A stretch of 60,000 bases of DNA from Bolinopsis microptera. Lineage: Eukaryota; Ctenophora; Tentaculata; Lobata; Bolinopsidae. The position numbers were made by a program, and so were the translations under genes. The notes beneath the pieces were generated by a model. The model was not told the origin of the DNA. It made no database searches and was given only the letters and a program-made list of their open reading frames with translations. Where the stretch lies: positions 9,169,983-9,229,982 of the forward strand of contig NC_087077.1 of the NCBI RefSeq assembly GCF_026151205.1. Direction: 5' to 3'. Positions within the stretch are counted from its first letter, which is position 1. Every line of letters begins with the position of its first letter. This document shows, piece after piece, positions 4,531 through 47,141 of the stretch.

Positions 4531-6270
4531 GGTCAGCAGTTACGGAGGACATGGTGCGGGAAGTGGGTCTGAGGTATAAGAAAATGAGGGCTGACCGCAA
4601 GCATAGACTTGGCAAGGCTAAAAGGACAGGAGGAATCACCGCTGATGTGGCTGTCCAGACAGAATCCCTGCACAGCTTAGAGTGCAAGGTAATAAACTGT
4701 AGGTTAATGAAATCCCACTGCTGAAGGATTTCCACTTCAATGGATGCCGGATCCAGCTGATGCTGTGTGCAGACACAAAAGCACTTTGGACAGTATTGGG
4801 TATGGGCTCCAACGGGACTTACCCATGCCCATTCTGCGAGATTAACAAAGATTGCATGCATATTCCAAGGAAGCAGCGAGTTCCAAGCAAAACAAGAACA
4901 TTTGCAGGAATAACAGAAAATTTCAACGACAACATGAGGTAGATGCAGTAGTCAAGTTGGGTAATTGTTTCATGGTATATTATGGATGTGTAATATTTAC
5001 TGTTTGATCAACATTAATGTTACAACTTAATTTATCAGGAAGACACAGTGTAACAGGAAACATCAGGCCCAGTTCATGAATGTCGCCTCACGACCCCTCA
5101 CTGTCTGTTATGGAGAGGAGAATAAAGACTTATTATCATGGGTCACAGTTCCATTCCTACACATTGTAAGATGAAATTTTTAGTGAACTATCACATTTCT
5201 TTTTCTTACACACTTTTACTATTATATGGAGATTTCAAAATCAATGCCTCAAACTGTAAGGTATCTGAGAAAATAATGTATTCTGCAGACTATAAAGGTT
5301 GGAACATACATATGGAAAGCTTACACCACGCTCTGTGAAGATGTGGACTTTGTTTATGCTTGTAATGTGGCTAATGGGGCCATACCCAACACTTACAGCA
5401 GTACAACAGACTTTGGTTCAATGATACACCAAATTGAGCAAGGGGAAGTGATAACTAAAAAGTCAAACAGTGGGCCCCTTTGCTCAAAGTATGACCAGTT
5501 TATGAGGAGCATTAAAGTGATTCCTGAAGCTTATCACGGGGTTTCACTAACGGGTGTACGCTCAGGATATTTCGTTAAAGCTAACCATGGACCATTTTGG
5601 CTGGAAAACTTCTATAAAAGCAGGTAATCAAATAGAATCATTCAAAAACTCACATCACTAGGTATAATTGTGCCCATCTGAAACATCATGCTACATATAT
5701 ATGACAACAGTTTCATATTCACAATTATTCAGACTGATAAATCCGCTAGACAAGCAGAAATTCCAACCTCGCTTGTTGGCCCTCGACCGAATGAGGTTGG
5801 CGTTCAAAGATGTGCTTCTCTCTGGAGGGAAGAATGCTAAGGTTGAAAATGCCAGTCAAATCGTATCCTTAAAGAATGCAAGGGACAAGTTTTTGCTAGA
5901 ATACCGGCAGTTATCCAAGACTACCTCTGTCAAAGCAGAAAATCAAAGTTGTTTTAATTTCCCGTATCTAATCAATGGCTTAATTTTAATTCATAATTAA
6001 ATAATAATTGGAACCATTCATGATATTAATCACTTGTTTTTGATAGGTCCACATTTTGGACCTGACCACTTTGTTGAACAGATACAGTTGTGGGGTATGT
6101 TCAGTGGATCTTGGAACGAGCAGGGTGGGGAGAGTACACACGCTCTCTTCAACAGACACGAACACATGACAAATCACTACCGAAACGACGAGGAAAGAGT
6201 GGTGAAAATTTGTGAACTTACTACACGAAAGTATCTTCTCAAGGTTAAATCAAAGCAAGATGACACCTAA
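4531..6270 (+). CDS. Transposase-like multi-exon gene (RNase-H/DDE type)
   Basis: Five exons join in phase with GT-AG introns: 4703-4938, 5039-5165, 5298-5623, 5733-5947 and 6047-6270, giving 375 codons plus stop. A possible preceding exon (4531-4688) is also in phase but is separated by only 14 nt. In order I see IQLMLCADTKAL (candidate second catalytic Asp), YPCPFCEINKD (CxxC of an inserted zinc site), VPFLHI, the block EAYHGVSLTG, and near the C-terminus WNEQGGESTHALFN, where the Glu of NEQ would be the third catalytic residue. This order resembles Transib/RAG1-like transposases and a widespread uncharacterised invertebrate family; I cannot choose between them. The first Asp lies upstream and was not found. 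It may be a spliced transposon gene, a domesticated copy, or a recent relic. A 34-bp minisatellite starts just after the stop. Confidence 0.55.
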
Positions 6271-6272
6271 GG

Positions 6273-7325
6273 TTGTATGAGGCTCTATCGTGAGCCCACA
6301 CTAAACTTGTATGAGGCTCTATCATGAGCCCACACTAAACTTGTTTGAGGCTCTATCTTGAACCCACACTAAACTTGTATGAGGCTCTATCATGAACCCA
6401 CACTAATCTTGTTTGAGGCTCTATCGTGAGCCCACACTAAACTTGTATGAGGCTCTATCATGAACCCACACTAAACTTGTATGAGGCTCTATCGTGAGCC
6501 CACACTAAACTTGAATGAGGCTCTATCGTGAGCCCACACTAAACTTGTATGAGGCTCTATCGTGAGCCCACACTAAACTTGTATGAGGCTCTATCATGAA
6601 CCCACACTAATCTTGTATGAGGCTCTATCTTGAACCCACACTAAACTTGTATGAGGCTCTATCATGAACCCACACTAAACTTGTATGAGGCTCTATCGTG
6701 AGCCCACACTAAACTTGAATGAGGCTCTATCGTGAGCCCACACTAAACTTGTATGAGGCTCTATCGTGAGCCCACACTAAACTTGTATGAGGCTCTATCG
6801 TGAGCCCACACTAAACTTGTTTGAGGCTCTATCATGAACCCACACTAAACTTGTATGAGGCTCTATCATGAACCCACACTAAACTTGTATGAGGCTCTAT
6901 CATGAACCCACACTAATCTTGTATGAGGCTCTATCGTGAGCCCACACTAAACTTGTATGAGGCTCTATCATGAACCCACACTAAACTTGTATGAGGCTCT
7001 ATCGTGAGCCCACACTAAACTTGAATGAGGCTCTATCGTGAGCCCACACTAAACTTGTATGAGGCTCTATCGTGAGCCCACACTAAACTTGTATGAGGCT
7101 CTATCATGAACCCACACTAAACTTGTATGAGGCTCTATCTTGAACCCACAATAAACTTGTATGAGGCTCTATCTTGAACCCACACTAAACTTGTATGAGG
7201 CTCCATCGTGAGCCCACACTAAACTTGTATGAGGCTCTATCTTGAACCCACACTAAACTTGTATGAGGCTCTATCTTGAACCCACACTAAACTTGTATGA
7301 GGCTCCATCGTGAGCCCACACTAAG
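6273..7325 (+). repeat. 34-bp minisatellite, about 31 copies
   Basis: The unit is TTGTATGAGGCTCTATCGTG followed by AGCCCACACTAAAC. 1053 bp divided by 34 gives 31 units. Units differ at a few positions: CGTGAGC, CATGAAC or CTTGAAC in the middle, and GTATG, GTTTG or GAATG at the start. The rare GAATG variant occurs at 6511, 6715 and 7021, spaced by exactly 6 and 9 units, with similar neighbouring variants, so blocks of several units have been duplicated together. The array begins two bases after the stop codon of the transposase-like gene. Confidence 0.95.
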
Positions 7326-9812: not shown

Positions 9813-10024
9813 GGGAACATAGTATACCCACAATAAATGCAACGGTCGTGCTTGCCAGCACTCAGAAGACGTTTCCCTGAAATGTGTATGCGATTTTGTA
9901 TGCGATTTGCGCGCCGCACGTACGTTAAAATAATTATATTTGTAGAATTTATGACGGTAACCCTTCAAAAGTCAAAAGAAACTGCTCGTATATTTATAGA
10001 CACTATGATATGAATAACTAAATA

Positions 10025-13000
10025 ACACCTTGAACCCAACTTGGAACCACATCCAAGGGCCGCACCGACCCCAGAAAAGCTATAATTCAAGTCAAAAATC
10101 TTTACTCGGCCCTGTATGTGATTTGTGTTCCGGGGTAGTGGACAGATGTTTTAATGGTTGAATAGCTAGTACCTATCCCAAACCATCATAAAAAACCAAG
10201 TTTTGTTCTCTCAACCCACTCAAGCCACTCCCAGGGGCCACACATAACACAAAATAGCTGAAATCCAGGTCAAATCCCATACATACAAATTCAGACTAAG
10301 AATCTTTACCCCCGTATGCCATTTATGTTCCGGGGTAGGTGGCCCATGTTTTAGTATAAAAATGGGTACTACCTATCCCAAACTATCATAAAAACCAATT
10401 TTCGACCTCTCAAACCACTCACGCCACTCCCAGGGGCCAAGCCCATCACAAAATAGCTGAAATCATGGTCAAATCCCATACAAATTCAGACTGAGAATCT
10501 TTACCCCCGTATGCGATTTATGTTCCGGGGTAGGTGGCCCATGTTTTAGTATAAAAATGGGTACTACCTATCCCAAACCATCATAAAAACCAATTTTCGA
10601 CCTCTCAAACCACTCACGCCACTCCCAGGGGCCAAGCCCATCACAAAATAGCTGAAATCATGGTCAAATCCCATACAAATTCAGACTGAGAATCTTTACC
10701 CCCGTATGCGATTTATGTTCCGGGGTAGGTGGCCCATGTTTCAGTATAAAAATGGATACTGCATATCCCAAACCATCATAAAAACCAAGTTTTAACCTCT
10801 CAAACCACTCAGGCCGCTCCCAGGTGCCACGCCCATCCCAAAATTGCTGAAATCCAGCTAAAATCCAGACTGAGAATCTTTACCCCCGTATGCGATTTAT
10901 GTTCCGGGGTAGGTGGCCCATGTTTCAGTATAAAAATGGCTACTGCCTATCCCAAACCATCATAAAAACCAAGTTTCGACCTCTCAACCCACTCAGGCCG
11001 CTCCCAGGGGCCACGCCCATCCCAAAATTGCTGAAATCCAGCTAAAATCCAGACTGAGAATCTTTACCCCCGTATGCGATTTATGTTCCGGGGTAGGTGG
11101 CCCATGTTTCAGTATAAAAATGGGTACTGCCTATCCCAAACCATCATAAAAACCAAGTTTCGACCTCTCAAACCACTCAGGCCACTCCCAGGAGCCACGC
11201 CCATCCCAAAATAGCTGAAATCAAGCTAAAATTCAGACTGAGAATCTTTACCCCCGTATGCGATTTATGTTCCGGGGTAGGTGGCCCATGTTTTAGTATA
11301 AAAATGGGTACTACCTATCCCAAACCATCATAAAAACCAATTTTCGACCTCTCAAACCACTCACGCCACTCCCAGGGGCCAAGCCCATCACAAAATAGCT
11401 GAAATCATGGTCAAATCCCATACAAATTCAGACTGAGAATCTTTACCCCCGTATGCGATTTATGTTCCGGGGTAGGTGGCCCATGTTTCAGTATAAAAAT
11501 GGGTACTGCATATCCCAAACCATCATAAAAACCAAGTTTCAACCTCTCAAACCACTCAGGCCGCTCCCAGGTGCCACGCCCATCCCAAAATTGCTGAAAT
11601 CATGGTCAAATCCCATACAAATTCAGACTGAGAATCTTTACCCCCGTATGCGATTTATGTTCCGGGGTAGGTGGCCCATGTTTCAGTATAAAAATGGGTA
11701 CTGCATATCCCAAACCATCATAAAAACCAAGTTTCAACCTCTCAAACCACTCAGGCCGCTCCCAGGTGCCACGCCCATCCCAAAATTGCTGAAATCCAGC
11801 TAAAATCCAGACTGAGAATCTTTACCCCCGTATGCGATTTATGTTCCGGGGTAGGTGGCCCATGTTTCAGTATCAAAATGGGTACTGCCTATCCCAAACC
11901 ATCATAAAAACCAAGTTTCGACCTCTCAACCCACTCAGGCCGCTCCCAGGGGCCACGCCCATCCCAAAATAGCTGAAATCAAGCTAAAATTCAGACTGAG
12001 AATCTTTACCCCCGTATGCGATTTATGTTCCGGGGTAGGTGGCCCATGTTTCAGTATAAAAATGGGTACTGCCTATCCCAAACCATCATAAAAACCAAGT
12101 TTCGACCTCTCAAACCACTCAGGCCGCTCCCAGGGGCCACGCCCATCCCAAAATTGCTGAAATCCAGCTAAAATCCAGACTGAGAATCTTTACCCCCGTA
12201 TGCGATTTATGTTCCGGGGTAGGTGGCCCATTTTTTAGTATAAAAATGGGTACTGCCTATCCCAAACCATCATAAAAACCAAGTTTCGACCTCTCAACCC
12301 ACTCAGGCCGCTCCCAGGGGCCACGCCCATCCCAAAATTGCTGAAATCCAGCTAAAATCCAGACTGAGAATCTTTACCCCCGTATGCGATTTATGTTCCG
12401 GGGTAGGTGGCCCATTTTTTAGTATAAAAATGGGTACTGCTTATCCCAAACCATCATAACAACGAAGTTTCAACCTCTCAAACCACTCAGGCCACTCCCA
12501 GGGGCCACGCTCATCCCAAAATAGCTGAAATCCTGGAAAAAATCAAGATTGAAAATCTTTACCCCCGTATGCAATTTATGTTCCGGGGTAGGTGGCCGAT
12601 GTTTTAGTATTAAAATGGGTACTACCTATCGCAAACCATCAAACAAACAAAGTTTCGACCTCTCAAACCACTCAGGCCACTCCCAGGGGCCACGCCCATC
12701 CCAAAATTACTGAAATCCAGCTAAAATCCAGACTTTAAAATCTTTACCCCCGTATGCGATTTATGTTCCGGGGTAGGTGGCCCATGTTTCAGTATAAAAA
12801 TGGGTACTGCCTATCCCAAACCATCATAAAAACCAAGTTTCGACCTCTCAAACCACTCAGGCCACTCCCAGGAGCCACGCCCATCCCAAAATAGCTGAAA
12901 TCAAGCTAAAATTCAGACTGAGAATCTTTACCCCCGTATGCGATTTATGTTCCGGGGTAGGTGGCCCATGTTTTAGTATAAAAATGGGTACTACCTATCC

Positions 13001-15040
13001 CAAACCATCATAAAAACCAATTTTCGACCTCTCAAACCACTCACGCCACTCCCAGGGGCCAAGCCCATCACAAAATAGCTGAAATCATGGTCAAATCCCA
13101 TACAAATTCAGACTGAGAATCTTTACCCCCGTATGCGATTTATGTTCCGGGGTAGGTGGCCCATGTTTCAGTATAAAAATGGGTACTGCATATCCCAAAC
13201 CATCATAAAAACCAAGTTTCAACCTCTCAAACCACTCAGGCCGCTCCCAGGTGCCACGCCCATCCCAAAATTGCTGAAATCATGGTCAAATCCCATACAA
13301 ATTCAGACTGAGAATCTTTACCCCCGTATGCGATTTATGTTCCGGGGTAGGTGGCCCATGTTTCAGTATAAAAATGGGTACTGCATATCCCAAACCATCA
13401 TAAAAACCAAGTTTCAACCTCTCAAACCACTCAGGCCGCTCCCAGGTGCCACGCCCATCCCAAAATTGCTAAAATCCAGCTAAAATCCAGACTGAGAATC
13501 TTTACCCCCGTATGCGATTTATGTTCCGGGGTAGGTGGCCCATGTTTCAGTATCAAAATGGGTACTGCCTATCCCAAACCATCATAAAAACCAAGTTTCG
13601 ACCTCTCAACCCACTCAGGCCGCTCCCAGGGGCCACGCCCATCCCAAAATTGCTGAAATCCAGCTAAAATTCAGACTGAGAATCTTTACCCCCGTATGCG
13701 ATTTATGTTCCGGGGTAGGTGGCCCATGTTTTAGTATAAAAATGGGTACTACCTATCCCAAACCATCATAAAAACCAATTTTCGACCTCTCAAACCACTC
13801 ACGCCACTCCCAGGGGCCAAGCCCATCACAAAATAGCTGAAATCATGGTCAAATCCCATACAAATTCAGACTGAGAATCTTTACCCCCGTATGCGATTTA
13901 TGTTCCGGGGTAGGTGGCCCATGTTTCAGTATAAAAATGGGTACTGCATATCCCAAACCATCATAAAAACCAAGTTTCAACCTCTCAAACCACTCAGGCC
14001 GCTCCCAGGTGCCACGCCCATCCCAAAATTGCTGAAATCATGGTCAAATCCCATACAAATTCAGACTGAGAATTTTTACCCCCGTATGCGATTTATGTTC
14101 CGGGGTAGGTGGCCCATGTTTCAGTATAAAAATGGGTACTGCATATCCCAAACCATCATAAAAACCAAGTTTCAACCTCTCAAACCACTCAGGCCGCTCC
14201 CAGGTGCCACGCCCATCCCAAAATTGCTGAAATCCAGCTAAAATCCAGACTGAGAATCTTTACCCCCGTATGCGATTTATGTTCCGGGGTAGGTGGCCCA
14301 TGTTTCAGTATCAAAATGGGTACTGCCTATCCCAAACCATCATAAAAACCAAGTTTCGACCTCTCAACCCACTCAGGCCGCTCCCAGGGGCCACGCCCAT
14401 CCCAAAATAGCTGAAATCAAGCTAAAATTGAGACTGAGAATCTTTACCCCCGTATGCGATTTATGTTCCGGGGTAGGTGGCCCATGTTTCAGTATAAAAA
14501 TGGGTACTGCCTATCCCAAACCATCATAAAAACCAAGTTTCGACCTCTCAAACCACTCAGGCCGCTCCCAGGGGCCACGCCCATCCCAAAATTGCTGAAA
14601 TCCAGCTAAAATCCAGACTGAGAATCTTTACCCCCGTATGCGATTTATGTTCCGGGGTAGGTGGCCCATGTTTTAGTATTAAAATGGGTACTACCTATCC
14701 CAAACCATCATAAAAACCAAGTTTCGACCTCTCAAACCACTCAGGCCACTCCCAGGGGCAACGCCCAACCCAAAATAGCTGAAATCCAGGTCAAATCAAG
14801 ACTGAGAATCTTTACCCCCGTATGCGATTTATGTTCCGGGGTCCGGTAGGTGGCCCATGTTTTAGTGTAAAAATGGGTACCTACTACCTATCCAAAACCA
14901 TCATAAAAACCAATTTTCGACCTCTCAACTCACTCAGGCCACTCCCAGAGGCTACGCCTATCCCAAAATAGCTGAAATTCAGGTCAAATCAAGAATGAGA
15001 ATCTTTACACCTGTAGGGGATTTAAGTTCCGGGGTATTCT
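10025..15040 (+). repeat. Satellite array, plus-orientation arm (184/195-bp units)
   Basis: About 26 units, each marked by CCCCCGTATGCGATTTATG then TTCCGGGGTAGGTGGCCC. Measuring between successive CGTATG sites (10313, 10508, 10703, 10887, 11071, 11255, 11450, 11645 and so on to 14819) gives spacings of 195 or 184 bp, rarely 185. The 195-bp form carries an 11-bp segment in TGGTCAAATCCCATACAAAT. From 12935 the order 195-195-184-184 repeats (758 bp), and a 1680-bp copy relation links 11255 to 12935. Units at both edges (from about 10025, and 14819-15040) are diverged, typical of array margins. Open frames inside the array repeat with it and are not genes. Confidence 0.95.
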
Positions 15041-15425
15041 TTTTGGTATGACTTACTATCACCACTCATTCGAGGAATATGTTAAATCAAAGAATATTCA
15101 TGTTCATTTTTTTCGAATGAAGGTTCATTATCGCATTTTTTAAATAGTTTTGATAATCAGATCGAGCCAAATTTTATAGGATTGTATTTGGCCATTCAAA
15201 TTACGTTCGATCTGAAAAAATGAGAGTTGTAGCTTCTCAGATGTCCGAGATACGAGGCATAACGAGTTTATTCATTACGTGTGATCAGGTGATTGGATTA
15301 CCTGTTCAGGTGATTAGATGGCCCCGTTAAATTGCAAGGGAACCCAATCAAGGTGTCCTATCACATAATCACCCAATCAATTTTGTTTTAACGAGATACA
15401 TTCAATGCGTCATTTCAACTCCGAG
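15041..15425. other. Spacer between convergent satellite arms
   Basis: 385 bp of non-satellite, AT-rich sequence lies at the symmetry centre. It contains repeated GTGATNNNNTGATTNGATT-like words around 15280-15330 (GTGATCAGGTGATTGGATTA, then CAGGTGATTAGATGG) and their inverse near 15355-15385. No coding region or TIR is evident. Confidence 0.7.
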
Positions 15426-18400
15426 TCTGGATTTGTATGGGATTTGACCTGGATTTCAGCTATTTTGGGATGGGCGTGGCCCCTGGGAGTGGCCTGAGTG
15501 GTTTGAGAGGTCGAAACTTGGTTTTTATGATGGTTTGGGATAGGCAGTACCCATTTTTATACTAAAACATGGGCCACCTACCCCGGAACATAAATCGCAT
15601 ACGGGGGTAAAGATTCTCAGTCTGGATTTGTATGGGATTTGACCTGGATTTCAGCTATTTTGGGATGGGCGTGGCCCCTGGGAGTGGCCTGAGTGGTTTG
15701 AGAGGTCGAAACTTGGTTTTTATGATGGTTTGGGATAGGCAGTACCCATTTTTATACTAAAACATGGGCCACCTACCCCGGAACATAAATCGCATACGGG
15801 GGTAAAGATTTTCAATCTTGATTTTACCTGGATTTCAGCTATTTTGGGATGGGCGTGGCCCCTGGGAGTGGCCTGAGTGGGTTGAGAGGTCGAAACTTGG
15901 TTTTTATGATGGTTTGGGATAGGCAGTACCCATTTTTATACTAAAACATGGGCCACCTACCCCGGAACATAAATCGCATACGGGGGTAAAGATTCTCAGT
16001 CTGGATTTGTATGGGATTTGACCTGGATTTCAGCTATTTTGGGATGGGCGTGGCCCCTGGGAGTGGCCTGAGTGGTTTGAGAGGTCGAAACTTGGTTTTT
16101 ATGATGGTTTGGGATAGGCAGTACCCATTTTTATACTAAAACATGGGCCACCTACCCCGGAACATAAATCGCATACGGGGGTAAAGATTCTCAGTCTGGA
16201 TTTGTATGGGATTTGACCTGGATTTCAGCTATTTTGGGATGGGCGTGGCCCCTGGGAGTGGCCTGAGTGGTTTGAGAGGTCAAAACTTGGTTTTTATGAT
16301 GGTTTGGGATAGGCAGTACCCATTTTTATACTAAAACATGGGCCACCTACCCCGGAACATAAATCGCATACGGGGGTAAAGATTTTCAATCTTGATTTTA
16401 CCTGGATTTCAGCTATTTTGGGATGGGCGTGGCCCCTGGGAGTGGCCTGAGTGGGTTGAGAGGTCGAAACTTGGTTTTTATGATGGTTTGGGATAGGCAG
16501 TACCCATTTTTATACTAAAACATGGGCCACCTACCCCGGAACATAAATCGCATACGGGGGTAAAGATTCTCAGTCTGGATTTGTATGGGATTTGACCTGG
16601 ATTTCAGCTATTTTGGGATGGGCGTGGCCCCTGGGAGTGGCCTGAGTGGTTTGAGAGGTCGAAACTTGGTTTTTATGATGGTTTGGGATAGGCAGTACCC
16701 ATTTTTATACTAAAACATGGGCCACCTACCCCGGAACATAAATCGCATACGGGGGTAAAGATTCTCAGTCTGGATTTGTATGGGATTTGACCTGGATTTC
16801 AGCTATTTTGGGATGGGCGTGGCCCCTGGGAGTGGCCTGAGTGGTTTGAGAGGTCGAAACTTGGTTTTTATGATGGTTTGGGATAGGCAGTACCCATTTT
16901 TATACTAAAACATGGGCCACCTACCCCGGAACATAAATCGCATACGGGGGTAAAGATTTTCAATCTTGATTTTACCTGGATTTCAGCTATTTTGGGATGG
17001 GCGTGGCCCCTGGGAGTGGCCTGAGTGGGTTGAGAGGTCGAAACTTGGTTTTTATGATGGTTTGGGATAGGCAGTACCCATTTTTATACTAAAACATGGG
17101 CCACCTACCCCGGAACATAAATCGCATACGGGGGTAAAGATTCTCAGTCTGGATTTGTATGGGATTTGACCTGGATTTCAGCTATTTTGGGATGGGCGTG
17201 GCCCCTGGGAGTGGCCTGAGTGGTTTGAGAGGTCGAAACTTGGTTTTTATGATGGTTTGGGATAGGCAGTACCCATTTTTATACTAAAACATGGGCCACC
17301 TACCCCGGAACATAAATCGCATACGGGGGTAAAGATTTTCAATCTTGATTTTACCTGGATTTCAGCTATTTTGGGATGGGCGTGGCCCCTGGGAGTGGCC
17401 TGAGTGGTTTGAGAGGTCGAAACTTGGTTTTTATGATGGTTTGGGATAGGCAGTACCCATTTTTATACTAAAACATGGGCCACCTACCCCGGAACATAAA
17501 TCGCATACGGGGGTAAAGATTCTCAGTCTGGATTTGTATGGGATTTGACCTGGATTTCAGCTATTTTGGGATGGGCGTGGCCCCTGGGAGTGGCCTGAGT
17601 GGTTTGAGAGGTCGAAACTTGGTTTTTATGATGGTTTGGGATAGGCAGTACCCATTTTTATACTAAAACATGGGCCACCTACCCCGGAACATAAATCGCA
17701 TACGGGGGTAAAGATTCTCAGTCTGGATTTGACCTGGATTTCAGCTATTTTGGGATGGGCGTGGCCCCTGGGAGTGGCCTGAGTGGTTTGAGAGGTCGAA
17801 ACTTGGTTTTTATGATGGTTTGGGATAGGCAGTACCCATTTTTATACTAAAACATGGGCCACCTACCCCGGAACATAAATCGCATACGGGGGTAAAGATT
17901 CTCAGTCTGGATTTGTATGGGATTTGACCTGGATTTCAGCTATTTTGGGATGGGCGTGGCCCCTGGGAGTGGCCTGAGTGGTTTGAGAGGTCGAAACTTG
18001 GTTTTTATGATGGTTTGGGATAGGCAGTACCCATTTTTATACTAAAACATGGGCCACCTACCCCGGAACATAAATCGCATACGGGGGTAAAGATTTTCAA
18101 TCTTGATTTTACCTGGATTTCAGCTATTTTGGGATGGGCGTGGCCCCTGGGAGTGGCCTGAGTGGGTTGAGAGGTCGAAACTTGGTTTTTATGATGGTTT
18201 GGGATAGGCAGTACCCATTTTTATACTAAAACATGGGCCACCTACCCCGGAACATAAATCGCATACGGGGGTAAAGATTTTCAATCTTGATTTTACCTGG
18301 ATTTCAGCTATTTTGGGATGGGCGTGGCCCCTGGGAGTGGCCTGAGTGGGTTGGGAGGTCGAAACTTGATTTTTATGATGGTTTGGGACAGGTACTAACT

Positions 18401-18450
18401 ATTTAAAACCCTAAACCTGTTCCAAATACCCCGGAACACAAATCGCATAC
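15426..18450 (-). repeat. Satellite array, minus-orientation arm (184/195-bp units)
   Basis: The same satellite as the left arm in reverse orientation, about 16 units. Successive CATACG sites (15598, 15793, 15977, 16172, 16367, 16551, 16746, 16941, 17125, 17320, 17504, 17699, 17883, 18078, 18262, 18446) are 195 or 184 bp apart. The order 195-195-184 (574 bp) repeats across 15977-17125. Units are nearly identical to each other, more so than in the left arm, which implies more recent homogenisation. The last unit, near 18380-18450, is diverged. Confidence 0.95.
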
Positions 18451-18454
18451 AGGG

Positions 18455-18520
18455 GTGAAATCGCATACAAATCGCATACACAAATCAAGGAAACGTGCTC
18501 TCCCAGCACTGTGATAGATC
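18455..18520 (-). repeat. Array-edge sequence, inverted copy of 9840-9905
   Basis: Just outside the right arm the sequence reads AAATCGCATACAAATCGCAT, then a stretch with GGAAACGTGCTCTCCCAGCAC. The reverse complement of 9840-9905, outside the left arm, reads AAATCGCATACAAAATCGCA, then GGGAAACGTCTTCTGAGTGC. The match extends beyond the satellite motif itself, so the outer edges of the two arms are also inverted copies of each other. Confidence 0.65.
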
Positions 18521-28057: not shown

Positions 28058-28250
28058 TGCAGAAAGTTCCAATCTACATGTTCCTAGGAAAAACAATAGG
28101 TTATGATTATCAATTCAGTCATGAAATTTATCACAAACAGTGCCCACTCTACTGTTGGTGGACCAGGGGGTGGGGGTTGTTTTCTCAAGAGATAAATTAA
28201 GCTGTGAGATTTAGAAGTTGACCCCAAGTTCAGATCCTTCACAGTACCTA

Positions 28251-28813
28251 GGGGGAAGGGGGGGTCCAAGGGGAACTTTGGGGAACTTTTTTTGGGGAAC
28301 TTCAGGAAACCTGGGGGACTTTCCCAAAGTTCCCCAAAATTCCCCAAAAGTTCCCCAAAAAAATTATCAGATTCTACCAATGAATGTAGGTATTGTTTTT
28401 TGTTCTTTTCGTTTATTTTATATATTTACATATCTATACGTGCTCTGCATAGCATTCTTACAAAATTGAGCAGTAAACATAACTATATTTGAATTGCACC
28501 GAGCAATGATAAATGATGATACAGGAGTTGAACCAAATGTAATGCAAAAAATCAGATAATAAGGCATAACTTACAGCTCTATTGAGTCATGCTGCAAGTA
28601 TCAACAAGTAAGTTAAGATTATACCTTAAATAATAACATACTGTATGTTAAAATTAATGGGTATTAATGTATATTTTGGGTATTAATGTAAATTTTGAAT
28701 AATTTTGGGGAACTTTGGGGAACTTTGGGGAGTTTTGGGGAACTTTTTTGGGGAACTTCAGAAATCTTGGGGGACTTTCCCAAAGTTCCCCAAAGTTCCC
28801 CTTGGACCCCCCC
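28251..28813. mobile_element. Foldback-type MITE with GGGGAACTTT arms
   Basis: 563 bp flanked by TACCTA on both sides (28245-28250 and 28814-28819). Arms of about 115 bp are inverted copies; each arm is itself built of GGGGAACTTT units followed by their complement AAAGTTCCCC, so each end can also fold on its own. The centre (about 28370-28690) is unrelated AT-rich DNA. It lies 190 bp upstream of the FERM start codon. Confidence 0.75.
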
Positions 28814-28870
28814 TACCTATAATATCAAATGTTGGAGTAGTTTGCTTTTTATTAGTCTCATGATGAAATA

Positions 28871-29144
28871 TTGATAATATCCGGTTGAAAGAGAGAACGA
28901 CAAATGAAACAGGAAGTTAGGAATGTGGGCAAATTTTCGGCATCAACGCCATCTTCAGGCTCGAATTATTTGTTATATATAGTAGTATTGAAAGTATTAA
29001 ACCACTACCATGTAATACTTTCAACACTACTTATACTATATAACAAATAATTTGAGCCTGAAGATGGCATTGACACCAAAAATTTGCCCACATTCCTAAC
29101 TTCCTGTTTCATTTGTTCTTGTCTCTTTCAACCTGATATTATCC
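28871..29144. mobile_element. Long palindromic MITE
   Basis: A 274-bp near-perfect palindrome, arms of about 125 bp around a 15-bp loop (about 28999-29012). Outer ends read GATAATATC plus GGTTGAAAGAG on both strands. Arms contain CCTGAAGATGGC and AATTTGCCCACATTCCTAAC. Non-coding; the open frame crossing its right arm is incidental. Confidence 0.8.
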
Positions 29145-29194
29145 AACTATCAGTAACTATAATAGTTACTCCAATTCGAAGGAAGCAATTATTG

Positions 29195-29649: not shown

Positions 29650-31690
29650 TTTTCTCAAAGACACTCCAGAAGGTACAAAATTCCTGTGTTAATTCAAATC
29701 AAATCAAAACATAATGATACATAAGATCATTACAAATATTCATAAAAATATCATAGGAAAACAAATTTTAGGGAAACAAATTTAAATTTTGGTATTTATT
29801 AATAACAATCAAAACATATCATATCATAAAAATAAGGCCGCGCGTTGGTTGACTGCCTCAGTAAGGTGAATAATATAAGCTTGAAGGTGCCCTGCGCATT
29901 TACAGAACCTCATGCGGCGATCACATGATCATGAGGACCTGTGAGCGCCAAATTTAATTTAAAGTTTCTAGAAATCATACATCACTACGAGTTACTCATG
30001 CTTTTTTAATTTTTATAGGAGTGTAGATTGTCTAGATTGTCAGGTATTTCATTCATTCATACTTAGTCGGTTTAAAGCTGTATATTTAGAACTCACTATT
30101 GTTTAAACTATGAAAGCAGAACGTAGGTAATGGACAATATACCGACGACAATACCAAGGACCCGAGTGCCACAATGACTTTTCCGGATCCGTTTTTACCG
30201 AGGGCTTATCCACCAGTTACACATGCTGCATGTATAGTCTGATAATATTTATTTGTTTTATTCTATAGCAGGCATTCTGTAAATTGGAGTGTCGTATTTA
30301 TTATAAAAGAGCCAGCCAACCTCCGCATTATAATCTTTTGTGTGCCAAGTTCGTTTATAAAATCTAATCATATAATAAAATTGATCCAATAATATAAGAT
30401 GAACGGTATATATCAGCTCATCGTTATTAAAATCCGAATGGATGAATTAATCAAGTTATGTTCCCTTTCAACACAACTAAACAACAAACAAATGCTTGCT
30501 CACCAGTGGTGACGCAATCGTAGGGGCATGCAGTTATTTCGGATAACTCTCACCCCGACGACAGCGTCGAAAAATAATCAAATTATGCATTTGCGCCATA
30601 CTGGACACATTTTATATTTAATATTCTACAGTTTGTAGAAATTAGTGTTATCTACAGTATAGCTTAACTGGCGAGCAAGCATCGTCCCACTCGGCCGGGA
30701 CGAAAATACCGAGTCCAATCACAGAAAGTTGACCATAAACTAAAGATAAATATAAGAGCTCGGACATCGACAAAAATCACACACTCCAGACGACGGGGGA
30801 ATAATTTAAATTTTAAATTATACCCAAGCGACCTAGTTCAGGTTAATAAACTTCTTCTTTGCTACATAGGGATGAAACCACAGATAATCATTATGTTTTA
30901 AACTTTTATTCTCCAGATTATTATCTCCTTCACCCCAAAAAGTGGGATTGCTCTTTCTTTAAACTGAATTACCGAAGTTCAGAAAGGAAGGTACATGATG
31001 AAAATGCAGTCTCAATAACATTACCTTTGAGATAATAATTTAGTTTTCTCACTTTCAGTCACTGGGCAGATCATAGAATCAAAGCACATCTGTCCCATGA
31101 CCCATCCCATCATACCACTGGGCTTTCGTGACCTCTAATTCTGAACTTTTTTATCGTGATATCAGACTAATCCTTGCATGGGTTAACTGCTTTAGTTATT
31201 GTACAAGGTCTGCATGTGCATTCACGGTGTCGACTATATAAAATGGGGACCTTCGAGCATGGAACTTATTTCCAGATTTAGCCTCAAATTGTTATAAGTA
31301 ATAATCAGCACCTGAAGCTACCTGAAAGAAGTCTGCACAGGTCCAGCTAGATTACTTGCAACTCTGCCAGTCAATATTTAGCAGTTACCAAATCTACCCG
31401 TGGGTGAAGTATGTAATGGCGTTGATGTCCTACTATACATCAAAGGACGTTTATAAACACGTGTGCTGTGAAACAGAAACTCAGAACCTACAGAAATTAA
31501 TTAAAGTCAAATCCAATGGACCACATTTCCTTTAAAAAAAAAAAAAAAATAAATATTGATTAGCCAAACGAATGGTATGTTTTTTTCTTTTTCAAGCTTG
31601 ATCTGGAAACCTCAAAACTTTTCGAGAGAAGTTAATTCCTTTTTGAAATAATATTTGGGCCTGAAACAAAGTGCTGCGAAGTAGCTTGAC
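29650..31690. other. Non-coding interval with short inverted repeat
   Basis: No supported gene. At 30493-30508 ATGCTTGCTCACCAGT is matched on the opposite strand at about 30665-30681 (ATGCTTGCTCGCCAGT), marking a possible 190-bp element. An A run lies at about 31535-31549. Other short open frames show no domain. Confidence 0.45.
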
Positions 31691-31747
31691 TTGTAGCGCG
31701 ATGCACTACTGGGTCGCGCGCGCATCAAATATGCTTCTCGCAACCAC
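31691..31747 (-). repeat. 57-bp copy of the CpG-rich 48-kb repeat
   Basis: The segment running from TTGTAGCGCGATGCACTACT to GCTTCTCGCAACCAC is the reverse complement of 48430-48486 with a single one-base difference in length. It lies just upstream of the intact LINE. Confidence 0.85.
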
Positions 31748-31977: not shown

Positions 31978-34900
31978 TTGCTTTCCGTAACTGGTACCAG
32001 TACACTAGTACGTTTTTCTTTATGTTATTCTTACACAAGAAAGAGTTTAAACTTCAATACTAAGTTTCATGGTAATATAGGTGGAATGACCAGTGATGAC
32101 GTCAGGCACATCAGCAGAAGCAGGGAGACACAGATTACCCCTGCTGCAGCATCTAACCCTCTACTCATCGTCCCTAAGTTGATCCCTCTCTCACTCATTC
32201 TAGCCCTTGCAACATTCAATGTTCGTGGGCTGAGCAAAGAAGTAGACCAACATATATTAGGACGTGACTGTACTCAATATAAATTAGACGTTATAGCCCT
32301 TCAAGAAACTAAAATCACTCAGCCATCTGAAGCAATGTTACCCTGTGGCAATAAGTTGATTATCATTGAACAAAAGGATGCCTGTTATGCAGGACTGGGG
32401 TTTGTGGTATCAAAGCGGCTAGTACCGTACATTGTTCAATATCATCGTGTTAGTGACCGTGTTGCGTGGATAGATTTCAGATTGCCTGTAAAGCACGGTG
32501 AACCCGTCATGTTTAGAGCCGTCAATGTGTACTGCCCAACCAACACCAAATCAGAACTCAGACCAGAAATTGTCAGGAAATTGTACAAGCAAGTCAGTTC
32601 AGCTATTGTCGTTCCTTCAAGACACGAGTTGTTTGTGATGGGAGATTTCAACGGTAGGCTGGGTAAGCTTGATGACTCAGACTATGTAAATGGTGTGTCA
32701 GATTATGTCGGCAGGCACGGTATGGGTAAAAGGAATCACAACGGTCACTACCTTCTCAACTTCATGTGTAGAAACGACTTGTTTGCTGCTAATACTGCCT
32801 TCCTTCACCGTGCGAGTCATCGGACCACTTACGAGGGTTTGGTTAATGTCAAAGGTCAGTCTGGTAAAAAGCATAAAGTGTTTACTCAGATAGATTATAT
32901 TCTTTGTAAAAGAAGAAGTAAATGTCTGCTCAGAGATGCTAGGTCGCACAACGGTATGGTGTTTAGTTCTGACCATAGGCTTGTAATATGTACGATTGAA
33001 TTGTCTAAACGCCCCCTGTTCTACGCTAAAGCTCCTAAACGTCCTAAAATGTTTGACACTCGCAGGCTCACATCAGACCCCGATTGTAAACGAATGTATG
33101 AACATGACATTGCTAGTAGACTTTCTACTGTAATACCCTCAGGTGATCCCAACAAGGACTTTGCAGTAGTACTGGGTGAAGTTCATAAGTCAGCTGCTGA
33201 GACCCTAGGCTACAGGAAGGCTAAGAATAAGTGCTTCTTCTCTAATGACCCTACTGTTGTTGCCCTAGTCGCAGAACGACACGATATACGCCTCGCCCTG
33301 GCAAGCACCAACAAGCCCTGTGATAGCTCTGTACTGCGAGGACGGAGAAATAAGCTCGGTAAAGACATCAAAAAGAGACTGAAGGAGCTAGAGTGTGCTA
33401 AGGCTGACCAGTTAGCTGAAGAAATTTCATCAACTGACGACACGCGTCAAATGTTCGAAGCTGTGAGATCCTTAGCTAAGACCAAAGAGACAAAGCCTAT
33501 AGTTGTCCACAATAAGGATGGGTACCCCATTGGTACAGACCTCGCTAAAGCTGAAGTACTCCGCGATTGGTATGAAGAACAGCTGACTGGAGATGAACCT
33601 GCCCTTGATCCGTTTGAAGGTCCCCCTTCTCCCCTCGACTGCCCTATCACAGAATATGAGGTAAAAACCGCTGCTAAACGCCTCAAGAACGGCAAAGCCA
33701 ATGGACCTGACAATACCCCCAATGAGCTCCTCAAGTATGGTGGGAGTGCGCTATGTGTCCATTACGCCAAAATCATCAACACCTGCTTTGAAGAGAACCT
33801 GTTCCTTGACGCTGTCGGAGAATGTTTCATCACCCCTCTTCAAAAGCCTGGCAAGACTCCTGGTGAACTGAAAAGCCTCAGACCCCTGACACTATGTAAC
33901 TGTGCTCGTAAGCTGCTATCCCTCATTACACTCAGGAGAATTGAAGCAAAGGTAGACGCTTACACAGGTCCATGGCAAGCTGCCTACAAGCAGAAGAGAA
34001 GCTGTGGAGACCTGGTATGGTGTCACCGTATGTTGATCAGCATCGTAAAAGAAAGAGAGTGGTCTTTCCACAAGATGGGCCTAGACATGTCCAGTGCCTT
34101 CGATACTATCAGTAGGCAGACTGTGCTCAACCTCCTAGACGACGCAGGGTGCACAAGAGATGAGATCAGACTAGTGAGATTCCTCCTGAGCAACACCAAG
34201 ATCAAGGTGCGAGTCAACAACGCTACCTCCCTTGAATTCATCAGCACCAATGGAGGACCCCAAGGTGATAGTGTTTCAGGCCTCTGTTTCACAATCACTC
34301 TAGCTGGTGCCTGCTACCACCTGCGTGCCGTGACGCTGCGCCCAACCCCTCCTATTAGTCCTAGCGGCATGCCTGAAGAAGATGCCTACTCTGATGACAT
34401 CGAATATCTTGGTGAAGACAAAGATGCTCTAGAAGCCCTCCTCCCTGTCGCTACTAAGGTGTTCAAAGAGTGGAATCTGAATATTAATGAATCAAAGACA
34501 GAGTTTGTACACGTCTACATAGCTGGGAAAGATGAGGTCATGGATGATGGTAAACCCCTTAGAATGAATGAAGAATGGTGCAGTAGCAAGTTGTTGGGTT
34601 CTCTGCTAGAAAGTAGGAAAGATGTCACCAGAAGAATCATGTTAGCCAATGTAGCATTCCAGAACTTCAAGAAGGTCTGGTGCCAGAGTAAGATCCCCCT
34701 ACAGAAGAAGCTGAAGGTCTATGAGGCCCAAGTAGTATCTATCCTCATGTATAACTCTAGTTGCTGGGGAATGCCTAAATCGTACTGGGACAAACTAGAT
34801 GCATGTCACCGTAACCACCTCAGAAAGATCATGAATGTCAGCTGGCCACGCAGTATGATGTCCAAAGATACCCTATACAAACAGAGTAACTCTACCCCTA

Positions 34901-35945
34901 TGTCTGAGCGTGCTGAGTTATCTAGGTGGAAGATGCTAGGACACATACTGAGGAGCGATGAAAGATCACCAGCTCAAGCTGCGCTGTGCTTTGCTGTCGA
35001 GATGTGTAGTGAAGTTGGTAGACTCGGGGCTCACAGACGTAACCTCCTACACCACCTGAAGGTTGACCTCTGGAAGCGTTTCATCTTGCTGGAGTCGTAT
35101 GATGATATTCTTCATTTGAGAGAACTTGCTAGTAACCGTGGTTATTGGAGTAAATTGTTCGACTTTATACTTGAGTACAAGTCAATTTGACTTTTGGGAC
35201 ATATAATCTTACAAAGGATCACGTTTAGGTTCTAAATTATTTTAGGATTGTTGACATTTGTAAGATTGACATGTTTGATAATAATAATAATAATGGTAAT
35301 ATAATCAAATATTTATTAACACCGATCATCGGTATATACCCATTATTGGTATCAAAGCCGTATGTTGAGCTGGATATCAAAAAATGTAAACCTGAAAGGC
35401 TGTAATTTTGTATTCGTTTAATTGTAGAACTAGGAACAACAACTTGATTGCTAGCAAGAGATTTGAGTAATTATGACCCTTTAAAGAATTTTAAAGAACC
35501 TTCCTAGTTGAGTAGTTGCTAATGCTTTGACTGAACAGTCGTGATCGCTGTATTAGAACTTGAAAAATTTGTTAAGTTTTGTAGTTTAGAACACGAGCTA
35601 AAATCTTTAGTGAAAGGGCTGATGACTTCAGTGAAAAGGCTGATGATTTCAGTGAAAAAGCTGGTGACCTAGTGAAAGTGCTGATGATAAACAGGGATTC
35701 CTTCGGGAGCATGTAAGATTATATCCAAAGTTTGTTGAGCTGGGGTGTGCCAATGGGGTGTGTCTGGGTGTCAAAAATCTTCAAGGTGGGTGCTACTTGT
35801 GATGAACTCTAGAAGGATGGGATGGTAATACTCGGTCTGGCCGATCTTCGCCACTTCAATAGATATTGGGTCGGCAATTTTGTGAGTGAGTGATTTTATA
35901 AAGACATGGATACAAGGATACACGGATACAAAGGATACAAAAGTG
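31978..35945 (+). mobile_element. APE-type non-LTR retrotransposon (LINE), near full length
   Basis: One long ORF followed by about 750 bp of 3' UTR that ends in a short tandem repeat of GGATACAA units (35907-35943), as in RTE-like elements with simple-repeat tails. The 5' limit is not determined; a TAG codon at 31975 precedes the open frame. An AAT run at 35278-35294 is an alternative 3' limit. No flanking target duplication was identified. Confidence 0.75.
32086..35190 (+). CDS. LINE endonuclease-reverse transcriptase, intact ORF
   Basis: The frame is open from 31978; the first ATG is at 32086, giving about 1034 aa. The N-terminal AP-endonuclease-like domain shows TFNVRGL, ALQETKI, MGDFNGRLG and SSDHRLVICT, supplying the expected Asn, Glu, Asp/Asn and Asp-His residues. 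RT follows with KNGKANGPDNTPNELLKY, RPLTLCN, GLDMSSAFDTI (first catalytic Asp), GGPQGDSVSGLCF and the catalytic box YSDDIEYL, in which Ser replaces the usual Ala of YADD. The C-terminal part contains VSILMYNSSCWG, LRKIMNVSWPRS and LGHILRSDE, typical of RTE-like and related LINEs. There is no frameshift or stop, so it may be young. It copies its own RNA at a nicked target. Clade assignment (RTE-like) is by motif memory only. Confidence 0.92.
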   Translation: MTSDDVRHISRSRETQITPAAASNPLLIVPKLIPLSLILALATFNVRGLSKEVDQHILGRDCTQYKLDVIALQETKITQPSEAMLPCGNKLIIIEQKDACYAGLGFVVSKRLVPYIVQYHRVSDRVAWIDFRLPVKHGEPVMFRAVNVYCPTNTKSELRPEIVRKLYKQVSSAIVVPSRHELFVMGDFNGRLGKLDDSDYVNGVSDYVGRHGMGKRNHNGHYLLNFMCRNDLFAANTAFLHRASHRTTYEGLVNVKGQSGKKHKVFTQIDYILCKRRSKCLLRDARSHNGMVFSSDHRLVICTIELSKRPLFYAKAPKRPKMFDTRRLTSDPDCKRMYEHDIASRLSTVIPSGDPNKDFAVVLGEVHKSAAETLGYRKAKNKCFFSNDPTVVALVAERHDIRLALASTNKPCDSSVLRGRRNKLGKDIKKRLKELECAKADQLAEEISSTDDTRQMFEAVRSLAKTKETKPIVVHNKDGYPIGTDLAKAEVLRDWYEEQLTGDEPALDPFEGPPSPLDCPITEYEVKTAAKRLKNGKANGPDNTPNELLKYGGSALCVHYAKIINTCFEENLFLDAVGECFITPLQKPGKTPGELKSLRPLTLCNCARKLLSLITLRRIEAKVDAYTGPWQAAYKQKRSCGDLVWCHRMLISIVKEREWSFHKMGLDMSSAFDTISRQTVLNLLDDAGCTRDEIRLVRFLLSNTKIKVRVNNATSLEFISTNGGPQGDSVSGLCFTITLAGACYHLRAVTLRPTPPISPSGMPEEDAYSDDIEYLGEDKDALEALLPVATKVFKEWNLNINESKTEFVHVYIAGKDEVMDDGKPLRMNEEWCSSKLLGSLLESRKDVTRRIMLANVAFQNFKKVWCQSKIPLQKKLKVYEAQVVSILMYNSSCWGMPKSYWDKLDACHRNHLRKIMNVSWPRSMMSKDTLYKQSNSTPMSERAELSRWKMLGHILRSDERSPAQAALCFAVEMCSEVGRLGAHRRNLLHHLKVDLWKRFILLESYDDILHLRELASNRGYWSKLFDFILEYKSI

Positions 35946-43141: not shown

Positions 43142-43907
43142 GTGCCTCCCAAGAGCAGAAAAAATCACATTCTCTCCCTCATTAATGACAATGAAGAAGA
43201 CTTCAAAGATGCCATTGAAATCCTTCTGGAAGATCATCCGACAGAGTCCCTTACCACTCCCTCTACAGAGTCCTTTCTCACTCCAAAACCTATATCACCG
43301 TCAACTTCTCCTGAGCCTAAGCATTTTTCGGATCTTGTGAAACACGTCTAGCTTGACCTTCCAGGGCCCCTGGTTGATGGGGTAATGAAAGAACTTATAA
43401 CGATGAAGACCGCACAACAGTAAGGAAAGTAAAGACCTTGTGGCTGAGTCCCCGCAATGATTCGTATAAGTATAGAAGGGTGGTCAACTAGCCCGAGCCG
43501 ATCAACGAGTTCTCCAAAATTGTCGAGCTGATGAACCTTGTTAACAGCAATAAGGCCACCTCTGGAAACATGACAGCCTGCGCCTGTCTTGTCAGCTGTA
43601 TGTCCTGTAAAGGAGCTAACCTGAACTACCATGACGACAACAAACCATTGATTGATCAGGACAGTGACATTTGTACGGTGTCGTTCGGTGCAGCAAGAAC
43701 ACTGGACTTTATAAGGAACGACAACAACCCTCCAGAATTATCTGTGCCAGCGACAGACCAGTCTCTCAATATCATGAAGGCTGGTTGTCAATCCAGACTA
43801 CTGCATAGAATTCCTCCGGGTGGTGTTAGAACAGATTCCAGATTTATATATTTTTTAAGTGATATTTAATAAATGATTAAAAGAACCAATTTTAAAGTTG
43901 CCATAGT

Positions 43908-46019
43908 GGGGGGGGGTGTCATGTCCGTCTATGTCCGCCTATGTCCTGTCCTTTTTGGATTCTATGAGACAACGGACATGTTTTTTGGGACATTGGCGGA
44001 CACGGACGGACATTGGCGGACTCGGACGGACATTGGCGGACTCGGACGGACATTGGCGGACTCGGACGGACATTGGCGGACCCGAACGGACATTGGCGGA
44101 CTTGGATGGACATTGGTGGACATTAGCGGACATTGGTGGACATTAGCGGACAAACATTTTGAGGACTGAACAGTACTGAAGAGTACTGAGGAGGATGGCT
44201 GAGAAGGATGGCTGAGGAGGATGGCTGAGGAGGATGACTGAGGAGGATGACTGAGGAGGATGACTGAGAGGGAGGAGAAGGATCAGGAAGACCCAGGAGG
44301 AGGAGGAGGAGGACCCAGAAGGAGGACCTAGGAGGAGGAGGAGGAGGAGAACTGAGGAGGATGACTGAGGAGGAGGAGGACTCAGGAGGAGGACTGAGGA
44401 GGACTGAGAAGGAGGAGGACTGAGGAGGATGGCTGAGGAGGATGGCTGAGGAGGATGACTGAGAGGGAGGAGGAGGAGGAAGAGGAGGAAGAGGACTGAG
44501 GAGGAGGAGAAGGACTGAGGAGGAGAAGAAGGACCCAGGAGGAGGAGGACCAAGGAGGAGGAGGACCCAGGAGGAGGACCCAGGAAAAGGCCCCAGGAGG
44601 AGGAGGAGGACTGGGGAGGAGGAGAACTGTTGAGGACTGATGAGGAGGACTGAGGACGAGGAGGAAGAGTAGGAGGAGGACTGAGGAGGGGAGGAGGAAG
44701 AGGACTGGGGAGGATCAGGAAGACCCAGGAGGACCCAGGAGGAGGAGGAGGAGGACCCAGGAGGAGGAGGAGGACTGAGGAGGATGACTGACGATGACTG
44801 AGAAGGAGGAGGACTGAGGAGTACTGAGGAGGATGGCTGAGGATGATGGCTGGGGAGGATGGCTGAGGAGGATGACTGAGGAGGATGACTGAGAGGGAGG
44901 AGGAGGAGGACTCAGGAGGAGGACTCAGGAGGAGGACTCAGAAGGAAGAGGAGGAGGACTCAGGAGGAGGACTCAGGAGGAGGACTCAGGAGGAGGACTT
45001 AGGAGAAATGAGAAGGAGGACTGAGGAGAACTGAGGAGGAGGAGGAGGACTGAATAGGAGGAGGAGAAGGAGGGGGACTGGGAGAGGACTGGGGAGGAGG
45101 AGGACTGGTGAGAAGGATGGGGAGGAGGACCCAGGAGGAGGAGGACTGAGGACCGAGGAGGAAGAGGAGGAGGATGAAGAGGAGGAGGAGGACCCAGGAG
45201 GAGGAGGACTGAGGAGGAGGACTGAGGAGGACTGAGGAGGACTGAGGAGGATGGCTGAGGAGGATGACTGAGAGGGAAGAGGAGGAGGAGGAGGAGGAGG
45301 AGGACTGAGGAGGACTGAGAAGGAGGAGGAGGAGGAGGAGGACTGAATAGGAGGAGGAGGAGGGGGACTGGGGGAGGACTGAGGAGGAGGATGGAGGACT
45401 GAGGAGAAGGATGAGGAGGAGGACTGAGGAGGACTGAGGACTGAGGAGGAAGAGGAGGAGGATGAAGAGGAGGAGGAGGACCCAGGAGGAGGACCCAGGA
45501 GGAGGACTCAGGAGGAGGAGGAGGACCCAGGAGGAGGAGGACTGTTGAGGACTGATGAGGAGGACTGAGGACGAGGAGGAGGAGTAGGAGGAGGACTGAG
45601 GAGGGGAGGAGTAAGAGGACTGAGGAAGATCAGGAAGACCCAGGGGGAGGAGGAAGAAGAGTAGGAGGATGAAGCATCTAAATGTTATTTCCATTTTTGT
45701 CCGTTTTTGTCCATTTTTGTCCGCTCTATTTTTTGTCCGTTTTGAAAATATAGGGTACCGAACGGACAAAAAACATGATCCCCCTATAACAGCAAAAATT
45801 GAACATTTTATTTAGCAATTTAGGTGTCCATTAATGTCCGCCTATGTCCGCCTATGTCCGCCTATGTCCGTCTATGTCCGCCTATGTCCGCCTATGTCCG
45901 CCTATGTCCGCCTATGTCCGTCTATATCCGCCTATGTCCGCCTATGTCCTGTCCTTTTTGGATTCTATGAGACAAGCGGACATAGACGGACGTGACACCC
46001 CCCCCCCCCCCCCCCCCCC
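43908..46019. mobile_element. 2.1-kb foldback-like element with G/C-tract ends
   Basis: Flanked by ATAGT duplications (43903-43907 and 46020-46024). Left end: a G tract then TGTCATGTCCGTCTATGTCC; right end on the minus strand: a G tract then TGTCACGTCCGTCTATGTCC. Inside the left end are 20-bp repeats GGACATTGGCGGACTCGGAC (43988-44152); inside the right end are 10-bp repeats CTATGTCCGC (45838-45955). Both contain the same hexamer, GCGGAC or its complement. A 36-bp segment beginning TGTCCTGTCCTTTTTGGATT occurs at 43944 and again at 45945 in the same orientation. The centre is a polypurine tract. No transposase is encoded; minus-strand S/P-rich frames are by-products of the tract. Confidence 0.85.
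44165..45675 (+). repeat. 1.5-kb polypurine tract (GGA/GACTGAGGAGGA)
   Basis: The plus strand is almost wholly G and A, built from GGA triplets and the word GGAGGACTGAGGAGGATGAC in irregular higher-order arrangement (for example GGATGGCTGAGGAGGATGAC recurs near 44214, 44429, 44838 and 45250). Such tracts can form triplex (H-DNA) or stall polymerases. Open frames on the opposite strand encode only Ser/Pro/Leu runs and are not genes. Confidence 0.95.
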
Positions 46020-47141
46020 ATAGTAAAGCCTTTAGGTCCAAAAATATACCCATTATGCTCACGTAAAAACAACTTTAAATCAGTAGGCTGTCACTCTATT
46101 AATGCACCACACCGCTTCCTCCACTGCACTAAAAGTTATACAATAAATTCTTCAATCCTAATTTTGTATCGTGATGGAGACCGGTGTCCATACAAAATTT
46201 TTACTAGGTTGCCGTTTGGTGTGAGCAATAGCGAACAGCACGAACACTCCTTTGCCCCGTCAACCTATATCTAATCTATTTAAAGAGTGACAACCATACT
46301 ACACATTGAATTAGGATTCCTTTAAATATCAAATTGATTTATTGTAAACTTGTTTACTCTGTAATAAATGGCATAAAATTGAATTTTTGTTTAACTGAAT
46401 TTTTGTTTAACTGAGATACAGTCTTTTTTTTAGGAACCTAACTGACCCACACCACTCCTACCTCTTCTCGTCCTTCTCCTCATCATCCTTCTACCCGTCC
46501 TCATCATCCTCCCCCTCCTAACACTGGCCTCCCGTTAGCCCCCCTAAGAAGAAGATCATACTCCTCGCTGGAGATACTTCGAGCGACTGGAAATATAAAA
46601 ACCCGCCAAGGGTAAACAGACAGTTTTCAAAGTCGCTATAAGTATAAAGGGTGGTCGCAAGATTGATGCTGTATTACACTTAATCGAGCAATTTGTGAGA
46701 AACCACCCTGATTTAGAGATTAAGAAACTGTTTGTGTGTGTAGGAACTAACGACATACGATACTGTCAGACTGGCATTATACACCTTAAAAGCCCTCTGC
46801 AGAACTTTATGTCCAAAATTAAATCCTTAGCTCCCTCAGCAAATATCTTTGTCCAGTCCCTTCTCCCTATACCTGCTAACGGTAACCCCAAAGGAGAACA
46901 AAATGTGGTCTCTATGAACAAATTACTCTTTAGTCTTTGTTCCAAATTTAAATTATTTTACCTTGATGTCTTTAGTAGTTTCCTTAGTTCATGGGGCGAC
47001 AGGAACTACCAGTTATTTCCTAAGTATAGTCTAGAATCGAAGAAGTGGGATATTCACGCCAATGCTAGGGGTATGGGTGTGTTAGCAAGACACTATATCT
47101 TTCTCATTTACTCAACATGGTTTAATCCGTTGGGTTACTGA

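Follow-up and report, generated by a model that had tools for sequence, protein, structure and literature searches.

Background

Foldback transposons with tandem repeats in their arms are best compared through Tetris of Drosophila virilis, which is described as a non-coding element composed of a flanking domain, tandem units of about 220 bp in inverted arms and a middle domain (PMC4079207). Its target duplications measure 8-10 bp, a 37-bp stretch is common to the outer domain and the unit, and the number of units is variable (PMC4079207). Satellite arrays formed by expansion of Tetris units reach 66 copies and were placed inside Tetris insertions with fibre-FISH; from sequence and FISH the authors argue that the elements are where satellites expand and that movement may cease once arrays are large (PMC4079207). 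Galileo, a member of the P superfamily, has long inverted arms with tandem repeats (0.5-1.2 kb), and the site of the THAP domain of its transposase, documented by footprint and gel shift, lies near the end and is repeated in the tandem units (PMC3688188). Tm1 and Muta1 are reported as foldback elements of the Mutator/Phantom type, with target duplications of 8-10 bp (Tm1, in which the outermost bases are non-matching) and 8-9 bp (Muta1), and the inverted arms of both are composite, with a variable number of tandem motifs (PMC3169594, PMC5225508). As described there, these two families show that foldback-type arms accompany Mutator-type transposases too.

The locus reported here lies in a window of 60 kb, the whole stretch of Bolinopsis microptera DNA that was analysed, to which all positions refer. 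To judge by its sequence, the block at 9863-18502 (8,640 bp) is very probably a single non-autonomous cut-and-paste foldback DNA transposon with satellite arms. A foldback-type transposon was among the explanations offered by a sequence-only reading of the block; in its favour are a terminal inverted repeat, a flanking duplication of 8 bp, a shared motif oriented by arm and paired outermost units.

Arms and spacer

The block has the long inverted arms holding tandem repeats that mark the foldback class. An array with a 184-bp period was found by TRF at 10287-15036 (25.3 copies, 93% matches), and an array with a 195-bp period, and with a period of 379 bp as well, at 15424-18456 (15.9 copies of 195 bp, 94% matches). 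When cut at a shared anchor, the plus-strand arm yielded 26 full units (10115-15013) and the minus-strand arm 16 units (15424-18449); the cut was anchored on the conserved block of the unit, automatic cutting placing 24 plus and 15 minus anchors, and the divergent anchors were placed by hand. The TRF result and the anchored cut both bear out the earlier count of about 26 plus-strand and about 16 minus-strand units of a 184/195-bp repeat. Among the 42 units the lengths were 184 bp (21 units), 195 bp (16), 185 bp (two), 200 bp, 193 bp and 178 bp (one each), the 178-bp unit being the innermost one of the minus arm, which is cut off.

The left arm is about 5.2 kb long and the right arm about 3.1 kb. 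Inside the left end (9909-10114, plus strand), outer-arm alignment and sequence reading found about 115 bp with no clear counterpart in the right arm, followed from about 10025 by a degenerate partial unit. The left-arm array proper (10115-15036, plus strand) consists of 26 units, of which the outermost, P00, begins at 10115, and is closed by a partial unit from 15014 to 15036. The right-arm array (15424-18450, minus strand) has 16 units, arranged mostly as 195/184 dimers and 195/195/184 trimers (574 bp). The greater homogeneity of the minus arm, remarked on in the sequence-only reading, was confirmed: mean pairwise unit identity was 98.7% in the minus arm vs 93.9% in the plus arm and 95.0% between arms, and distinct unit rows numbered 6 in 15 units of the minus arm (one row being the cut-off unit) and 18 in 25 units of the plus arm (the outermost unit of each arm was left out of these figures).

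Between the opposed arms lies the middle domain or spacer (15037-15423), which was searched for frames, folding and second copies. A separating spacer had been described earlier and was found, although its length is 387 bp and not 385 bp. It holds no long reading frame, the longest stop-to-stop frame wholly inside it being 57 codons, and its fold is close to that of shuffled sequence (z-score -1.39, with 6 of 100 shuffles folding equally well). Of diagnostic value for the block are its outer ends and not the spacer, which had been suggested earlier as a probe for other loci.

Ends of the element

Beyond the arrays, positions 9869-9908 align with the reverse complement of 18458-18496, giving the inverted repeat at the ends that is expected of a foldback element (identity in 36 of the 40 columns, with a score of 58). 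The largest score in 300 letter shuffles of one side was 28; among up to 500 random window pairs the best two scored 52 and 60, for which further inverted repeats in the window may account, so that a score of 58 is by itself not unique. The left terminal inverted repeat is placed at 9863-9908 (plus strand) and the right one at 18451-18502 (minus strand).

Immediately outside these ends the 8-bp sequence CCAGCACT occurs as an exact direct repeat (8/8), at 9855-9862 on the left and 18503-18510 on the right; it is the longest exact match between the outer flanks and falls within the about 8-10 bp of foldback target-site duplications. Exactly 6 bp separate each copy from the aligned terminal repeat. 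In 200,000 draws of random points, an 8-mer repeat lying within 0-8 bp of both edges arose with a probability of 0.0025. Since random flank-sized pieces had an exact 8- or 9-bp match in 22 of 200 draws, the argument for a duplication rests on its position. Between the two ends, only 3 of the outermost 6 bases match, which makes the exact ends and the length of the duplication uncertain (8 bp, or 9 bp with one mismatch when CCAGCACT is extended by one base); with this uncertainty the insertion is taken as 9863-18502, or 8,640 bp. A hairpin-like GTGCT...AGCAC pair present at both ends was considered as part of the terminal repeat and is read by preference as the CCAGCACT copies adjoining GTGCT-bearing sequence; in view of this pair it is possible that the element ends a few bases further out.

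In the sequence-only reading the array limits were correct to within a few bases, but the block extends beyond them, to 9863 and 18502. The inverted repeat outside the arrays and the adjoining 8-bp direct repeat had both been missed in that reading.

Motif common to ends and units

The ends and the tandem units have the motif GTATGCGATTT in common, a feature expected of a Tetris-like satellite donor. The 60-kb window contains 43 exact copies of it, against 0.03 expected, and all 43 lie inside the element (9886-18479), the 25 copies of the left half all on the plus strand and the 18 copies of the right half all on the minus strand. Two head-to-tail copies are carried by each terminal repeat, 12 bp apart on the left (9886-9896 and 9898-9908) and 11 bp apart on the right (18458-18468 and 18469-18479). 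Within the arrays the motif is present once per unit in 39 of 42 units (23 of 26 plus and 16 of 16 minus).

Variation along the unit is lowest over the 40 bp of TTTACCCCCGTATGCGATTTATGTTCCGGGGTAGGTGGCC, in which 1 of 40 columns is variable vs 40 of 184 overall, the variable column lying inside GTATGCGATTT (the outer or partial rows P00, P25, M00 and M15 were dropped from this count). Permutation gave p values of 0.0085 for a conserved block of 40 bp, 0.10 for 50 bp, 0.04 for 60 bp and 0.048 for 70 bp, which are uncorrected for the four sizes and come from units that are not independent. From its repetition and position, and by analogy with Galileo, the GTATGCGATTT region is a putative transposase binding site.

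Outermost units

Measured against the consensus of the 40 internal units, the outermost unit of the left arm, P00 (10115), differs at 29 of 184 columns and that of the right arm, M00 (18449), at 24. The two have 11 departing columns in common (hypergeometric probability 0.00015) and carry the same state at nine of them, and six of these states are absent from all 40 internal units; nine shared states were reached in none of 100,000 random placements, a model that ignores mutation bias. A maximum-likelihood tree of all 42 units likewise set P00 and M00 apart from the other 40 (bootstrap 88, SH-aLRT 93), on long end branches and at a fork that is not starred. P00 and M00 are read, from their sequences, as probable old partners at the two ends, the internal units having probably been amplified later.

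Growth of the arms and alternative explanations

The arms grew separately by block duplication. In the plus arm a four-unit block of 758 bp is present three times, at 11257, 12937 and 13695, with copies differing at 3 of 758 and 5 of 758 bases, and the copies at 11257 and 13695 differ at 2 of 948 bases when compared over the longer stretch; the same arm holds an exact direct duplication of 732 bp at a distance of 1,680 bp. Exact repeats in the minus arm measure 766 bp (distance 1,148 bp) and 573 bp (distance 574 bp). No unit sequence is identical between the arms and no exact inverted match of at least 100 bp was found between them, which indicates that recent growth and homogenisation took place within each arm. 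The tree needs three arm-label changes vs a mean of 11 in shuffles. A regular long period was considered for the minus arm and rejected: offsets of 953 and 1,148 bp give at least 143 mismatches over the full length, whereas 379 and 574 bp give 1, so that the higher-order blocks are local.

Some unit forms are nevertheless common to both arms. The 195-bp form occurs in each, as does a 184-bp form ending in a ATCAAGATTGAAAATC run, which is represented by P12 (185 bp there) and by M00, M01, M05, M07, M10 and M13; some variants thus predate the separation of the arms or were exchanged once. The presence in both arms of the 184- and 195-bp forms, one 184-bp form even sharing its end across arms, would suit a satellite array split by local inversion, in which part of a head-to-tail array was turned round and the spacer is breakpoint filler. 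This explanation, which the sequence-only reading had offered as a satellite seeded by inversion, is improbable: it predicts no outer inverted repeat, no flanking direct repeat and no kinship between outermost units 8 kb apart, all three of which were found, and it sits poorly with arms that have no identical unit in common; the mirrored orientation of GTATGCGATTT is also left unexplained by it.

Less probable still is an artefact of assembly or library preparation, by which a read was folded back on itself or two contigs were joined head to head. Arrays of this kind are hard to assemble, but a folded read would give identical arms, in conflict with the absence of any shared unit and of any exact inverted match of at least 100 bp between them, and neither the flanking 8-bp repeat nor the paired ends would be expected.

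Satellites carried by Helitrons or Helentrons are reportedly known from oysters. Helitrons are not known to produce a target-site duplication and have non-inverted ends. Elements of this group are said to carry central arrays of satellite-like repeats often (PMC12628747), and in this respect the block resembles them. Its arms are inverted, however, and an 8-bp direct repeat is present, so that a Helitron- or Helentron-carried satellite is highly improbable here. Equally remote is a centromeric or other structural block, in which the convergent arms would have a chromosomal role: the 195/184 dimers and 574-bp trimers do form local higher-order repeats, which are typical of many centromeric satellites, but the block is only 8.6 kb long and is bounded by an apparent target-site duplication, the window also contains LINE and gene-like frames, and the centromere-like interpretation put forward earlier finds no support among the sequence findings in the 60-kb window.

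Proposed origin of the satellite arms

For a non-autonomous foldback transposon the following course may be proposed. A transposase supplied by another copy would bind GTATGCGATTT at the ends, and unequal exchange or replication slippage would have multiplied the GTATGCGATTT-bearing units within the arms. At first this amplification may have been an advantage, through a larger number of binding sites, or a neutral by-product; the amplified units would then have run on as satellite. Because homogenisation would run head to tail within each arm, the arms would stop exchanging sequence with each other. A stronger version is offered tentatively and is rather doubtful: the arms may be an amplified array of transposase binding sites, selection for more terminal sites having driven the formation of two mirror-image satellites with local higher-order repeats while the ends and the target duplication stayed intact. 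If this were so, satellite birth, the formation of higher-order repeats and dispersal would all take place within one mobile unit.

No transposase domain was found in the 10 frames scanned among the 27 of at least 110 codons in the window, a selection that omitted the frames of the repeat arrays and some others. Scans of the window with Rfam (gathering thresholds) and with ARAGORN for tRNAs (bacterial code) returned nothing. Exact and degenerate patterns of the unit had 0 matches in viral contigs and in bacterial and archaeal genomes, where none are expected for eukaryotic DNA.

Surroundings

The window holds an unbroken LINE-type frame with endonuclease and reverse transcriptase, and another of its frames encodes SRCR and ephrin-receptor-like domains; both frames point to a eukaryotic, probably animal, host. 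The LINE protein had no confirmed relative in viral contigs. The same 60 kb also contain two smaller stretches that resemble foldback elements, with inverted arms that hold short tandem repeats. At an E value of 0.01 nothing else in the window matches the unit, the ends or the spacer of the present element, so that these two stretches are taken as separate families; their presence suggests that the process could be studied to advantage in this genome.

Comparison with known foldback elements

Among the matches listed in a search of open-access titles and abstract openings, none described a complete foldback element whose arms measure 5 and 3 kb and consist of units of about 190 bp, and none of the open papers whose text was searched for six pieces of the unit contains any of the six. 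The foldback element at this locus appears to be complete: its ends and target duplication are preserved, and its arms have already become satellite arrays containing local higher-order blocks. It offers a single expanded element that is open to reading at base resolution. Since the terminal motif is present in 39 of 42 units, a direct test can be made of whether arm repeats act as sites for the transposase, and with it of the proposed route to satellite birth; the element is unusually large and clean, and its kind is already known.

Compared by structure, the present element matches Tetris as published in its plan, in the size of its target duplication and in having a stretch shared by end and unit. 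Arms of structurally complete Tetris copies are described as reaching 1,735 bp, and the single left arm given in detail has three or four units (PMC4079207); the present arms, at about 5.2 kb (26 units) and 3.1 kb (16 units), are longer and contain local higher-order blocks. The outer domain, by contrast, is about 46-52 bp in the present element vs up to 866 bp in Tetris (PMC4079207). The composite tandem arms and the size of the duplication are also like those reported for Tm1 and Muta1, and the non-matching outermost bases are like those of Tm1; the tandem motifs of these two families are 12-15 bp vs 184-195 bp here, and both families have transposase-coding members. Likeness to the published Galileo lies in inverted arms with tandem repeats and in a site near the end that recurs in the units, with the differences that the arms of Galileo are shorter and that the binding site of the present element is deduced from repetition and position. 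On the evidence of its sequence, the element shares its plan with the foldback transposons Tetris and Galileo.

Other features in the window

Outside the main foldback-type transposon candidate, the second stretch that is foldback-like (i.e., with inverted arms built from tandem repeats) lies at 43901-46024. Its ends read GGGGGGGGGTGTC.../...GACACCCCCCCCC and are identical in 30 of 31 columns; the inverted arms consist of 10/20-bp repeats (ATGTCCGCCT) and the core of about 1.4 kb is GAG-rich. The 7-bp motif CCATAGT, found at 43901 and 46018, is a candidate flanking repeat of this stretch, with an edge that is uncertain because of a C run. In the third such stretch (28245-28819), the ends are G-rich and are followed by GTCCAAGGGGAACTTTGGGGAAC in inverted arms made of short tandem repeats, with a 6-bp match, TACCTA, at 28245 and 28814.

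The inverted repeat at 28864-29152 (arms of 116 bp, 89% complementary, separated by 57 bp) is perhaps a MITE. Dispersed inverted copies of another repeat were seen at 31686-31747 and 48430-48491, with an identity of 97% across a 63-column match, and a weaker copy at 48672-48723. A highly regular 34-bp minisatellite occupies 6273-7324 (30.9 copies, 94% matches); the two frames directly before it (5277-5627 and 5668-6000) yielded no match to Pfam families at E 0.01.

The LINE-type frame at 31978-35190 runs for 1,070 codons without a break, contains endonuclease and reverse transcriptase domains, and perhaps represents a recently active element. At 46599-47141, a frame of 180 codons is GDSL-hydrolase-like, a kind that occurs in some LINE proteins.
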